From: Paenibacillus aceti
Lineage (GTDB): Bacteria > Bacillota > Bacilli > Paenibacillales > Paenibacillaceae
DNA: 64,000 nt
NCBI RefSeq assembly: GCF_003614185.1
Contig: NZ_KZ987724.1
Span: forward strand, 416,679-480,678
Direction of reading: 5' to 3'
In this document: piece by piece, positions 465 through 53,335 of the stretch
Layout of the letters: each line of letters begins with the position of its first letter
How positions within the stretch are numbered: position 1 is the first letter of the stretch
Made by a program: the position numbers and the translations under genes
The notes under the pieces: generated by a model
Databases searched by the model: none
What the model was told of the DNA's origin: nothing
The model's input: only the letters and a program-made list of their open reading frames with translations

Positions 465-646
465 AAAAACCTGCAAAAATGCAGGCTTTTATGCCGAAAC
501 TACCCAATTACAAGCAAAAGCCTGCAAAAATGCAGGCTTTTCTCCTTAAATCACCCAAATTCCATGTTTTCCAGTGAAAAAGATGCATATTTGCAGGAAT
601 TTCTATAAACTCGCCCGATACGAGGAAAATACCTGCATTTTTGCAG
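465..646. repeat. Four-unit palindromic intergenic element, family A copy 1
   Basis: Four palindromes with core CCTGCA-N4-TGCAGG or close variants are centred near 477, 529, 591 and 638, giving spacings of about 52, 62 and 47 bp. The second unit (516-541) is an 11-bp perfect inverted repeat around AAAA. The same four-unit layout recurs at 15744-15930 and 30275-30459. There is no coding potential; a minus-strand open frame through 289-507 is a by-product. Confidence 0.8.
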
Positions 647-686
647 TTTTGGCCTCCTCCATTTCAGAAACTCCATCCCGCCACCC

Positions 687-15417: not shown

Positions 15418-15743
15418 CTCTGGTCGAGTTTGCGCCGCAATTTCCTGCACCGCACTCTATAAGGCTGCGCCAATCCGAACGAACATAACTTCAACATCGC
15501 TAATATATTGGCCGGAGTAGGGTCAGCGTGGGAGTAACTTAGGATGCACCAGATTGGCGTAATCAGATTAGAGTAACCAGTGGCACAGAGGGCGTTGGTG
15601 TGAACGGAGTAATTTAGTTTTTTTTGAGGAGGAGTAATTAGCTAGGCTGGAGCTTTATCGGAATAGTATGTAGTAGACTTGCTTGAGGTTGCTTTGGGGA
15701 CGTGTGAAGAGTTTCTTCTTGCTTGGCCCAGCTCGACCCAGTC

Positions 15744-15930
15744 ATTCCTGCATAAATGCAGGCTTTTGAGGAGAAATCTGGATTAGGATAGAAATTCCTG
15801 CGATTATGCATCTTTTTTCGAGGTTTCGGCCTCAATTCAAGGAAAACGTAGATAAAGCCTGCATATTTGCAGGAATTCTCACCAAAACAGGTGATAAGTA
15901 GGTAAAAGCCTGCAAATTTGCAGGCTTTTA
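15744..15930. repeat. Four-unit palindromic intergenic element, family A copy 2
   Basis: Four units with the core CCTGC-N6-GCAGG or variants are centred near 15757, 15804, 15867 and 15917 (spacings about 47, 63 and 50). The last unit (15904-15930) is a perfect 11-bp inverted repeat around AATT. The upstream gap (15418-15743) carries degenerate GGAGTAA-type phrases but no gene. Confidence 0.8.
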
Positions 15931-16014
15931 CACACAGCGTCACACACAGCGTCACACACAGCGTCACACACAGCGTCACACACAGCGTCATACACAGCGT
16001 TTCACGCACAGCGC
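15929..16014. repeat. 12-bp tandem repeat (CACACACAGCGT)n
   Basis: Five near-perfect copies of a 12-bp unit ending CACAGCGT, then two degenerate copies, directly abut the last palindrome of the family A element. Because 12 is a multiple of three, a minus-strand frame stays open through it, producing a repetitive false peptide. Confidence 0.85.
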
Positions 16015-29410: not shown

Positions 29411-29878
29411 GTGAAATGTCCGTATTGTGACTATATGGGGACGAAGGTGCTTGATTCGAGGCCGGCTAACGAGAATCGCTCGATCCGCCGCCGTCGCGAA
29501 TGTGAGAGATGCAGCCGACGTTTTACTACATTTGAAATGGTGGAGGAAATGCCGCTCATCGTCATTAAGAAAGACGGCAGCCGCGAGGAATTCAATCGCG
29601 AGAAATTACTGCGAGGACTGATGCGGGCTTGTGAGAAAAGACCAGTATCCGTCGAGCAATTAGAGTCTATCGTATCCGAGGTAGAGCGCCAGATGCGCCA
29701 TTCTGCGAATGCAGAGGTAGAGAGCCGTGAAATCGGCGAGCTCGTGATGGAACAATTGTATCCGGTGGATGAGGTTGCTTATGTCAGATTCGCCTCGGTA
29801 TATCGTCAATTCAAGGACATTAACATGTTCATGAAGGAGCTGAGCAGCCTGCTCTCCAAGCCTGCAGTCGAGGAGTAA
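29411..29878 (+). CDS. nrdR: Transcriptional regulator NrdR
   Basis: A 155-residue repressor of ribonucleotide reductase genes, starting at GTG after AGAAGGGAG. The N-terminal zinc ribbon uses Cys3, Cys6, Cys31 and Cys34 (MKCPYC...CERCSRRF). The ATP-cone follows from about residue 46 ([23 protein letters not shown]). The length and motifs match the family exactly. B. subtilis has nrdR close to the same polA-mutM-coaE region. Monocistronic with a UUCG-loop terminator. Confidence 0.96.
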
Positions 29879-29939: not shown

Positions 29940-29983
29940 GAGGAGGCTTGGTTGTTGTGATTGTTGTGACCACCTTGTCTCTC

Positions 29984-30165
29984 TCTAAACTACAGATCGC
30001 TATTTCCCCAAAAACAGCGTTAAAATAAATTTAACGAAACATCATCTCGCTATTTCAACGAAATCCCGCCTTTTGGCCCCTTAATCGCTCCAATAGCGTT
30101 CCCCAGTCTATCTATACACGATGTCCCATCCGAGTACGTTTCCTGGCCTATTTCGCAAGAGTTTC
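29984..30165. repeat. Four-unit intergenic element, family C copy 1
   Basis: Units related to (T)AACGAAAC-N5-TCGCTATTT are seen at 29984-30004 and 30032-30056. An inverted unit ATAGCGTTCCCCAGTCTA lies at 30092-30110, and a degenerate unit is near 30147-30165. Equivalent positions are about 51, 60 and 53 bp apart. It lies just upstream of family A copy 3; no gene is present. Confidence 0.6.
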
Positions 30166-30274
30166 CATATATTAGCACGCTTCCTACACTAATTATCAGC
30201 GCATCCTACGTAATTACACATACTCACCGTAATCCCACGTTCATACCACATTCCAGCCGCCTACCCAAAGTTGA

Positions 30275-30459
30275 AAACTGCAAAAATGCAGGTTTTTGGT
30301 CCAAAACCACCTGTTCTGGGTGAATTCCTGCAAAAATGCAGGATTTTCCATCTTTTTCTGCAGAATCAGGCGGATCTAGATAAAATACCTGCATTTACGC
30401 AGGAATTCACTCTCCCGGGGCTGAGTATTTGGAAAATTCCTGCATATTTGCAGGCTTTT
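30275..30459. repeat. Four-unit palindromic intergenic element, family A copy 3
   Basis: Units with CCTGCA-N4-TGCAGG cores or close variants are centred near 30287, 30336, 30396 and 30446 (spacings 49, 60 and 50). It sits 70 bp upstream of the pstS Pho boxes. A plus-strand frame through the region is incidental. Confidence 0.82.
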
Positions 30460-30617: not shown

Positions 30618-31556
30618 ATGAAAAAAAGTATGCTGTTGGTATTAACAATTATTCTGACATTAACGCTGGCCGCCTGTGGAAGCAGCTCAGATAATAAACC
30701 AGACAATTCATCCTCAGCAGGCAACACATCCGCGAATAGTGGAAAAGAAACAAATGACAAGAAGGAACTCTCCGGCTCGATTCTGGCAGTTGGTTCTTCG
30801 GCGCTACAGCCGCTGGTCGAACAAGTTAGCCATAGCTTCATGGATGAGAATCCGAAGGTCTCGATTCAAGTGCAAGGCGGAGGTAGTGGAACTGGCTTGA
30901 CGCAAGTATCCGGGGGACAAGCGGATATCGGTAACTCCGACGTATTCGCGTCCGAGAAGCTGGATGCAGGTCCAGCGGAAGAGCTGGTTGACCATCAAGT
31001 TGCTGTAGTTGGTATGGCGGCGGTCATTAATCCGGAGATTACAGTTGACAATTTGACCAAGGATCAATTGGTGAAGATATTTACAGGTGAGATCACGAAC
31101 TGGAAGGATGTTGGCGGAGCAGATCAGAAGATTCAGATCATTAACCGTCCATCCAGCTCAGGAACACGGGCAACCTTCGAGAAATATGCCTTAGGCACAA
31201 AGACGGAAGATTTGCAGGGGGCGATCCAAGAGGATTCCTCTGGTACCGTTAAGAAGCTGGTGAAGGAAACTCCAGGCGCGATTGGCTACCTTGCTCTGTC
31301 CTATCTCGATGAATCCATCAAAGCCGTGAAATACGAGGGCGTTGAGCCGACGGAAGATAACGTAGCGAACGGAACTTATCCGGTATGGGCTTACGAGCAT
31401 ATGTATACGAAGGGTGAGCCGAGTGAAATTGTCAAGACATTCCTCGACTACATGCTCTCCGATGAAGTACAGAATAAAGATGTTGTTGAGCTTGGCTACA
31501 TCCCGGCTAGCAAGATGCAAATCAAGCGCGATGTAGACGGCAATATTACCAAATAA
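30618..31556 (+). CDS. pstS: Phosphate-binding lipoprotein PstS
   Basis: A 312-residue ABC-transporter binding protein. The signal peptide ends in a lipobox LTLAAC with Cys20 as the lipidated residue, followed by a Ser/Asn-rich spacer. Phosphate-ligand segments are GSSALQPLVEQV, GGGSGTGLTQV, GNSDVFASEKL and NRPSSSGTRATFEKYAL. It captures phosphate outside the membrane and delivers it to PstCA. It is the first gene of a four-gene pst operon behind Pho boxes. A strong stem-loop follows its stop. Confidence 0.96.
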   Translation: MKKSMLLVLTIILTLTLAACGSSSDNKPDNSSSAGNTSANSGKETNDKKELSGSILAVGSSALQPLVEQVSHSFMDENPKVSIQVQGGGSGTGLTQVSGGQADIGNSDVFASEKLDAGPAEELVDHQVAVVGMAAVINPEITVDNLTKDQLVKIFTGEITNWKDVGGADQKIQIINRPSSSGTRATFEKYALGTKTEDLQGAIQEDSSGTVKKLVKETPGAIGYLALSYLDESIKAVKYEGVEPTEDNVANGTYPVWAYEHMYTKGEPSEIVKTFLDYMLSDEVQNKDVVELGYIPASKMQIKRDVDGNITK

Positions 31557-39355: not shown

Positions 39356-39431
39356 GGGGAATTAGCTCAGCTGGGAGAGCGCTTCGCTGGCAGCGAAGAG
39401 GTCAGGGGTTCGAGCCCCCTATTCTCCACCA
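39356..39431 (+). tRNA. tRNA-Ala (GGC anticodon)
   Basis: A complete 76-base tRNA with CCA encoded (39429-39431). The acceptor arms GGGGAAT/ATTCTCC pair with one wobble. The D arm contains AGCTCAGCTGGGAGAGC, the anticodon stem CTTCG/CGAAG surrounds CTGGCAG with anticodon GGC, and the T arm is GGGGGTTCGAGCCCCC-like. A terminator follows immediately, so it appears to be transcribed alone. Confidence 0.97.
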
Positions 39432-39514: not shown

Positions 39515-39702
39515 ATAACTGCTAAAATACACTTGTTTTTCTGAAATGAGGCTGAACTCGGGCAAATAGGTGCGTAAATACAACTATTTGCTGGTAAAAG
39601 CACCTAATCGAAGTGGAAATCATCGGAATAATTGTATATTTGCATTTATATTGCCTGTTACCCGAATAATGGAGGCGTATAGTTGTATAATTGCAGTTAT
39701 AT
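39515..39702. repeat. Four-unit intergenic element, family B copy 1
   Basis: Units related to ATAACTGC-WAAWATACAACTAT in both orientations are centred near 39526, 39579, 39639 and 39689 (spacings 53, 60 and 50). It closely matches the copy at 53103-53287 in unit order and orientation. No gene is present. Confidence 0.78.
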
Positions 39703-39895
39703 CTCGAGCGGAGGGCAAAAAACATTAATGTAGTTTAATATTTGGCTTTTATAAGCTGCTATCGCCATGGAAATGGGGCCGCTGATGGAACTGATCACGC
39801 ACTAATGGAGCACCGACAACTTCAGATTGTTTTTCAGAACGCTAGAACCTCTCCTATGAGATTTTTTGAGCCAAGTACCTTCCATCGTATTTACT

Positions 39896-40075
39896 TAGTT
39901 GCAGAAGATACACTTATTTCTGTAGAAAATCGTTTAACGTTACCTGCAGTTGTATTTTGTACACTTAAATAACTTATTTTTGTGATAATAACCGAAAATC
40001 GAGATTCTAAGTGCACTTTTTGCAATTAAAGTGAAGCTAGAATCGATTGGCGATGATTTAGTTGTACTTATGAGC
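39896..40075. repeat. Four-unit intergenic element, family B copy 2 (degenerate)
   Basis: Degenerate units GTTGCAGAAGATACACTTAT, TGCAGTTGTATTTTGTACAC, GTGCACTTTTTGCAATTAAA and TTAGTTGTACTTATGAG are centred near 39908, 39958, 40021 and 40066 (spacings about 50, 63 and 45). It lies 190 bp after copy 1. Confidence 0.55.
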
Positions 40076-40184
40076 CTTATAATGTCCGCATGTAATCCGC
40101 CTACGAGATTGATATCCATTCGAACCCCTCTTTGTTTAGCCTCTTCTAACAAAAGGAGCATAAATCAACTGTTCTGAGGAAATT

Positions 40185-40369
40185 TCCGCAAATTTGTAGA
40201 CTGTTGTAAAAGTACTGGCGAGACTTTCGGAGCTCTAACGAAACACCATATCGTTATTTGGGTAGAAAACCACCATTTAGCCTCTGATTTGCTCAGATAG
40301 CGCTCTCCAGTTTCGTTAGATTTTGAAATGACCCCTTTTGATGCAAATAACGATATACAGTTTCGTTAG
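40185..40369. repeat. Four-unit intergenic element, family C copy 2
   Basis: Clear units CTAACGAAACACCATATCG(TTATTT) at 40235-40260, inverted AGATAGCGCTCTCCAGTTTCG at 40295-40319 and AAATAACGATATACAGTTTC at 40344-40369 have centres 60 and 49 bp apart. A possible degraded first unit lies at 40185-40205. The element is homologous to 29984-30165. Confidence 0.62.
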
Positions 40370-53092: not shown

Positions 53093-53102
53093 GTATTTTC
53101 AT

Positions 53103-53287
53103 ATAACTGCTAAAATACACTTATTCCGAGGGGGACAGTTCGAAATCGAGGAAATAGCTGCGTATGTACAACTATTTACTCCAATAGTCCTCAAAAGACA
53201 GGTCATTCATCCAAATAGTTGTAAAAAAGCAATTATATTAGCCGCGGAGAGGACGAAGGATCAATATAGTTGCATATTTGCACTTAT
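53103..53287. repeat. Four-unit intergenic element, family B copy 3
   Basis: Units at 53103-53124, 53154-53176, 53214-53238 and 53264-53287 are centred near 53113, 53165, 53226 and 53275 (spacings 52, 61 and 49). It begins with ATAACTGCTAAAATACACTT, identical at this point to copy 1 at 39515. An 86-codon frame across it is incidental. Confidence 0.8.
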
Positions 53288-53335
53288 GGGCTGGGCTGCT
53301 GCTGGTTATGTGCGTAATCCGAGTAGAGTCATAAT

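Follow-up and report, generated by a model that had tools for sequence, protein, structure and literature searches.

Intergenic elements of four units at whole-turn spacing, with A/T triplets in helical phase, in Paenibacillus aceti and related bacteria

Dispersed bacterial repeats are usually classed by sequence and treated as mobile debris. From sequence comparison, the repeats described here appear closest to three known kinds of DNA, namely REPIN/BIME repeats, MITEs and DNA carrying positioned nucleosomes, although they do not pass defining tests of a REPIN. REP sequences, BIMEs and REPINs are made of short, intergenic, palindrome-like units in inverted arrangement, with conserved units, less conserved spacers and preferred spacings, and occur in hundreds of copies belonging to families that differ between genomes (PMC3116915, PMC3733652); our elements share these traits. 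A REPIN consists of two inverted REP units forming one hairpin, whereas the present elements have four units in the order > > < <, keep a single interval plan across many unit families, combine whole-turn quantisation with phased A/T in the spacers, show no compensatory hairpin-keeping changes in the arms and are carried by several genomes with no Y1/RAYT gene. MITEs are likewise short, non-coding and dispersed, and one of our families (F) sits within a genuine MITE, the ends of which are inverted and in some cases flanked by 9-bp duplications. The terminal inverted repeats that serve as a MITE criterion are found at the ends of family C (TCTAACGAAAC) and in the F shell (CACTAGCGTTGCATTAA). 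Unlike MITEs, the module in P. aceti has no shell, the C copies have no duplication, and the same geometry occurs in different shells or in none. CRISPR arrays are long arrays of direct repeats with unique spacers, whereas our elements are dispersed and hold four units in inverted order.

The third comparison concerns DNA shape. According to PMC4132750, bacterial genomes usually have a period of ~11 bp, while 10 to 10.5 bp marks nucleosome-wrapped DNA and values below 10.5 bp solenoidal DNA. The elements resemble nucleosome-positioning or phased A-tract DNA of this kind in having A/T every ~10.2 bp on one face, more weakly in family C, a period on the side of 10.5 bp associated there with solenoidal or nucleosomal wrapping. 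They differ from it in being bacterial, in forming discrete repeat families and in having four fixed, sequence-specific units. We found no earlier description of such elements in the open-access literature.

The window analyzed here is a stretch of 64,000 bases, corresponding to bases 416679 to 480678 of the 5.57-Mb main contig of P. aceti (genome G000). This genome contains three families (A, B and C) of intergenic, gene-free elements of ~186 bp, each with four ~24-bp units (U1 to U4) in the order > > < < at intervals of 50/51, 61 and 50/51 bp. Family A elements lie at 466..651 on the minus strand (51-61-50; 24-mer units starting at 466, 517, 578 and 628), at 15743..15928 on the plus strand (50-61-51) and at 30273..30458 on the minus strand (50-61-51), the last between nrdR (29411-29878) and a PBP-like gene (30618-31556). 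The remaining five have no assigned strand and comprise family B elements at 39515..39700 (51-60-51 in this frame) and 53102..53288 (51-61-51), a weaker B-like element at 39895..40080 (51-60-51), a family C element at 40185..40369 (50-61-50) and a decayed family C element at 29981..30165. The flanking genes are ordinary.

An earlier note on this DNA had claimed eight such elements with spacings of 45 to 53, 60 to 63 and 45 to 53 bp. We compared them with a sequence-blind scan whose score measures how closely U1, U2, rc(U3) and rc(U4) resemble one another at 49 to 52, 60 to 62 and 49 to 52 bp (maximum score, 144). Six were recovered with scores of 89 to 114 (at 466, 15743, 30273, 39515, 40185 and 53102), and the other two were weak, scoring 76 at 39895 and 63, a background value, at 29981. 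The rest of the window gave 62 to 69, plus a score of 74 overlapping the 30273 element, attributable to chance or overlap. The plan therefore stands as claimed, with real intervals that are tighter (50/51, 61 and 50/51), and the question mark that the note had put on the first spacing at 40185 reflects a first unit decayed beyond recognition. The element at 29981 is best seen as a decayed copy of family C, judging by a unit search that recognizes U1 and U2 and finds U3 and U4 poor. An 11-mer tandem repeat (CACACAGCGT-like, 15929-16010) directly adjoins the 15743 element of family A. Families A and C frequently occur side by side, as at L009:9612/9825, L013:8550/8763, L016:8707/8940, L020:11053/11287 and L010:4900/5193 in other stretches of the genome and at 29981/30273 in the window. 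In these six pairs, taken in this order, the distance between the facing C and A units was measured by hand as ~52, 52, 72, 73, 131 and 131 bp, and four of the values are close to 5 or 7 helical turns.

To place the layout against chance, we used a 464-kb sample of G000 made up of the window and 20 stretches, so that 20 of its 21 parts had been picked for holding A units. The family A core, CCTGCANNNNTGCAGG, occurs 181 times in the genome, versus once for the pattern read backwards. Distances between A-type units in the sample were concentrated at 51 bp (35 pairs), 112 (34), 61 (27), 50 (20), 111 (20), 162 (17) and 163 (9), every other distance up to 600 bp occurring three times at most. Among 33 candidate A elements, 25 had no more than four mismatches per unit, and the middle interval was 61 bp in all 25, with 60 to 62 permitted. 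Family C (TCTAACGAAAC-N7-CGTTATTT; 77 hits) followed strict directions, with > > at 50 bp (15 cases), > < at 61 (16) and < < at 50 (16) and 1-bp deviations in single cases; the family B intervals are alike (51, 61/62 and 51). The sequence-blind scan of the sample yielded 53 elements scoring at least 84 and 57 scoring at least 78, compared to none in six and four dinucleotide-preserving shuffles, respectively. Other control geometries gave 0 to 10 hits, versus 55 for the real one; a 50/71/50 control gave 56 but is unsuitable, because windows slid 5 bp outward convert 61 into 71. One GC-rich hit within a gene is probably due to chance. The elements occupied 43 intergenic gaps (25 between genes of the same direction, 11 convergent and 7 divergent), as judged with a simple purpose-written gene caller.

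Single units at random spacing, the outcome that the earlier note had named as refuting its claim, were not what we saw. Full elements hold 63 of the 77 C-type hits and 99 of the 135 A-type hits, the latter counted at up to two mismatches, so that some of those outside elements are chance matches. When the intervals were left free (outer, 36 to 77 bp; inner, 36 to 85 bp) on 1.88 Mb from several genomes, the best outer interval was 50 or 51 bp in 86 of 100 clusters, in DNA that had in part been fetched by the A geometry and with a few clusters representing tandem arrays of 51-bp period. Among the stretches used, L009 to L028 had been selected for A units, L079 to L098 for C pairs and L139 to L218 for matching a three-unit A pattern, and such preselected DNA entered both the free-interval grid and part of the survey of further families. 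The other repeated feature in G000 was a CRISPR-like array (L022:8884-12700; repeat CACTCCTTGCACAGGAGTG, 66-68 bp period).

Units and lengths are the parts that stay constant. Compared with the consensus of 25 copies of family A, the 24-bp units diverge by 9.7%, the spacers by 35.8% and the outside DNA by 62.8%. Within the units, the 12 core bases by which the copies were found diverge by 4.4%, and the A/T flanks, which played no part in finding them, by 7.2%. The lengths in family C, counted at the listed places of G000 and G011 with G032 left out, vary little. In G000 the inner pattern length was 57 in 43 of 50 places (56 in 6 and 55 in 1) and the outer length 59 in 98 of the 100 places listed out of 181. 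In G011 the outer length was 59 in 43 of the 50 places listed out of 123 (57, 58, 60 or 63 in the others), and of the 25 elements listed out of 30, a single one was 11 bp shorter in its inner interval than the remaining 24. The A copies of P. faecis match one another at 83 to 92% over pieces of 200 bp or more, and differences private to a single copy are half as frequent in the unit flanks (14/767) as in the spacers (51/1434; P = 0.024, for flanks outside the search pattern in 16 of 18 copies and with relatedness ignored). These patterns suggest that individual copies are maintained by purifying selection acting on both the units and their intervals.

That the same geometry is used by differing unit sequences, as the earlier note had proposed for three families, extends well beyond the window. 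Family D (CTAACGGAAA..., in G032 and G011), family E (CTAACGGACA..., in G000, G011 and G032), a family in G009 and others in G041, G043, G112, G078, G137 and P. oralis all keep ~50 to 52 and 60 to 62 bp. Family F of P. faecis DSM 23593 (G007) and family H (one element in G137) have intervals of 51 and 72 bp, with unit centers placed by hand, so that their middle interval is one helical turn more than 61. Of the 41 places compared in family F, where the U2-U3 interval was free to take any of 31 lengths, 39 had the same length and two deviated by 1 bp; three of the 41 belong to one tandem array. Intervals of 50/51 (50.5), 61/62 (61.5) and 72 bp correspond to 5, 6 and 7 turns of ~10.2 bp. The layout thus outlives the sequence, with whole-turn spacing in at least eight unit families, most of which also have an A/T phase near the nucleosomal value.

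This A/T phase is a new finding, the A/T triplets of the spacers being in helical register with the unit centers. In the middle spacer of 28 A elements, their frequency was 0.64, 0.82 and 0.61 at 20, 30 and 40 bp from the left unit center and 0.00 to 0.07 at 23 to 28 and 33 to 38 bp; 26 C elements had 0.96, 0.35 and 0.85 at 20, 29 and 40 bp. After helical-phase scaling, the maximum fell on the same face as the unit centers in each of the families A (29 elements), B (11), C (35), D (4), E (1) and F (17), with lows of 0.00 to 0.16 on the opposite face. Within-family P values are too small because the copies of one family share ancestry. With one element for each of 32 groups (of 35 labeled, those with enough A/T triplets), R was 0.38. 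For 244 shifted segments it was 0.074, and in 500 samples that each drew 32 of these segments it never exceeded 0.235. The mean phase fell within 2 bp of the units in 29 of the 32 groups and more than 2 bp off in three; since two of these groups (MAG_L and G193) share one 32,211-base contig, they represent at most 31 distinct genomes, and further overlaps are possible. Whole-element spectra, which include the units themselves, peaked at 10.15 bp in family A (n = 118), 10.15 bp in other families (n = 30) and 10.25 bp in F (n = 17), with contrasts to flanking DNA at 10.2 bp of ~9-, ~5.5- and ~11-fold, respectively. With the units masked, the peaks were at 10.00 (A), 10.15 (other families), 8.85 (F) and 11.85 bp (C), and, of five families, B alone had a column-average spectrum above its rotated control. 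The fit to the phase is poorer in family C, which has a whole-element peak at 9.95 bp (n = 38; contrast, ~3) and whose outer spacers carry an out-of-phase A/T cluster at 14 bp from the inner unit.

Of the options in the earlier note, phased protein binding gains support from the whole-turn intervals and from A/T triplets in phase with the units, the binder being putative. We see about even chances that the elements are DNA modules built for bending or wrapping, with four sites occupied by a family-specific, putatively dimeric protein. Such a module would be a piece of non-coding DNA of about 185 to 197 bp, made to be bent or wrapped. Its four ~24-bp sites, in the dyad order > > < <, are 5, 6 and 5 turns apart (5, 7 and 5 in F and H) and hence on one face of the helix, and its spacers are free in sequence except for A/T triplets that tend to recur on the same face. 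A putative dimeric DNA-binding protein, with its own specificity in each family, would most likely fill the four sites, and the bound dimers would probably join into one complex holding the DNA in a solenoidal curve. Located between genes, the modules might conceivably act as positioned nucleoid or supercoil-holding points or as boundaries. Purifying selection on units and intervals, indicated by the divergence data, would maintain the copies. These spread partly as cargo of carriers with transposases unrelated to the module geometry, as shown for family F in P. faecis and indicated for A in that species. Our search did not find the binding protein, and neither Y1 transposases nor Lrp/AsnC genes track the elements. 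Lrp/AsnC was rejected as the binder, with one PF01037 gene in G000 versus families A, B, C and E.

Curvature could also act without a dedicated protein, an intrinsic bend being used by HU, gyrase or plectoneme tips, and the persistence of A/T phase and whole-turn intervals while the unit sequences change would fit it. We consider this quite improbable, since the 12 core bases of family A diverge so little that their letter-by-letter conservation exceeds what curvature needs, and several families coexist within one genome. In these elements, the shape and length of the DNA seem to matter more to selection than its letters do. How bacterial DNA acquires its shape at fixed points thereby becomes a question open to test, and the elements are ready bait DNA for finding a putative family of DNA-binding proteins.

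A folded RNA or a DNA cruciform had been suggested as well, and the palindrome-like units would suit a transcribed RNA or single-stranded or cruciform DNA with four hairpins. Element E does fold far better than shuffled sequence (z = -7.85), because palindromes fold so, and native spacers fold somewhat better than shuffled ones on both strands (mean z, -1.0 to -1.9). In contrast, the covariation check proposed in the earlier note gave nothing in the arms of TGCA-type units beyond shuffles within eight genome groups (z at most 2.2 and often negative). Spacers 1 and 3 paired no better within than between elements (-10.4 versus -10.8 kcal/mol in A and -10.7 versus -10.5 in C). In family C, a C/T change that produces a mismatch on one of the strands and a wobble on its complement favors no strand; it is found in all four units, which themselves point both ways. 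Both directions are about equally frequent (10 and 13 in A, with 2 unclear; 24 and 21 in C). No Rfam family matches the elements in the searched loci; the window yielded only the tRNA at 39356, and stretches L014, L034, L044 and L037 yielded none. Moreover, an RNA would need no whole helical turns. The hairpin or cruciform reading was rejected on the lack of arm covariation, of spacer 1-3 pairing beyond that between elements and of strand polarity, and we regard it as highly improbable.

The last option in the earlier note, a mobile miniature element, is right in part, with support in P. faecis and evidence against it in P. aceti. In P. faecis, family F is the cargo of a ~330-bp MITE with shell ends CACTAGCGTTGCATTAA and perfect 9-bp duplications in three of nine end pairs (eight loci), with near matches by eye in two more. 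Two insertion sequences carrying DDE_Tnp_1 genes have, at the single end seen in each, a sequence that resembles the shell end. Several A copies of this species lie between IS200-like ends that elsewhere flank Y1 transposase genes, which indicates that A is mobile-element cargo there too. In the G000 sample the nearest paralogs are at most 83% identical, and target duplication was absent from 37 C and D copies. For A, B and C in G000 we found no autonomous partner with the same ends. Recent transposition in G000 was also considered and rejected, since the sole identical C pair (C1:4551145 and 4719561) lies within a longer duplication. The same contig, C1, has 14 Y1 transposase matches of equal E value and length, probably copies of one IS200-like element.

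Comparison of syntenic sites, also proposed in the earlier note, often revealed different elements at matching gaps. Where P. aceti has its 15743 element of family A, G032 has a C element and G011 a single C unit, and the counterpart of the 29981/30273 gap holds two D elements in both genomes. Same-site elements do occur, with E shared by three species and the A element at 466 matched by another A element in G011. Alignment of empty sites between G000 and G011 or G032 gave no insertion points, the gaps being too diverged. Between the two D elements of G032 (L034:11740-12850) there are degenerate CTAAC/CACTAA-rich repeats, largely missing in G011, and spacer 3 is more alike between the two D copies of one genome than between counterparts.

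These data bear on a selfish, REPIN-like origin, in which a transposase encoded elsewhere would read the four sites and the geometry would be a need of the synaptic complex, with no gain for the host. The hundreds of dispersed intergenic copies in families fit such an origin, as do the differing occupied sites in related species, the sharp ends of family C at the outer unit edges (TCTAACGAAAC on both sides, like terminal inverted repeats), the tandem arrays described below and the recent copies in P. faecis. We nevertheless hold it to be rather unlikely. What moved recently in P. faecis were shells that have ends of their own, in one case with a DDE transposase and 9-bp duplications and in the other IS200-like, so that the four-site geometry is not something they require. 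The paralog identities and missing target duplications given above also speak against it, as does the absence of Y1/RAYT genes from seven carrier genomes, and a synaptic complex would leave the phased A/T of the spacers unexplained. RAYT was rejected as a partner because PF01797 had no match in the carriers G011, G012, G017, G018, G022, G031 and G032. That the module travels in unrelated shells or bare argues against a geometry dictated by a single transposase.

A scan of further genomes, another proposal of the earlier note, placed the layout far outside the window, with TGCA-type unit pairs in 51 of 246 genomes and 19 of the 46 genera of the order; the reversed pattern gave one hit in each of three genomes. 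Within the genus, such pairs were present in 21 of 41 genomes, reaching 237 per genome (reversed pattern, 0), and family C pairs in 4 of 41. With one genome per species, the three-unit A pattern was found in at least 116 stretches, and among the 80 listed, 79 came from Paenibacillus, Cohnella, Fontibacillus or Paenibacillaceae bins and one from a Flavobacteriales bin. No element was found in stretches of 20 to 60 kb each from G004, G020, G026, G030, G034, G036 and G039, and none was seen in stretches of G045, G048 and G055. PLSDB plasmids had no match to F, C or A elements and the phage set none to A. A two-unit pattern of 16 fixed bases matched viral contigs, of which the collection is very large, and many of these matches are probably due to chance. 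We would tentatively make a broader proposal, to which we attach less than even credence, that the elements are a bacterial counterpart of the positioned nucleosome. They would be order-wide modules of ~190 bp set by helical geometry and A/T phase instead of sequence, in which paralogous dimeric proteins of changing specificity might wrap intergenic DNA into a solenoidal particle and which mobile elements would take up as cargo.

Some arrangements depart from dispersed single copies. TGCAN4TGCA units form long one-direction tandem arrays of 51-bp period in G231 (L119:7260-7976 and L121:4773-5538) and G112 (L122:9687-10096), and five near-identical C elements lie in tandem with a 220-bp period in G032 (L037:1999-3060). 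The genes beside the tandem arrays had nothing in common that we could see, their names being guessed from the first 60 residues. Extra forward C units ~50 bp apart occur in L376 of G000. The densest place seen was in G043 (L113 to L115), a genome from another taxonomic family, where two of three 20-kb stretches together contained seven elements belonging to at least four unit families.
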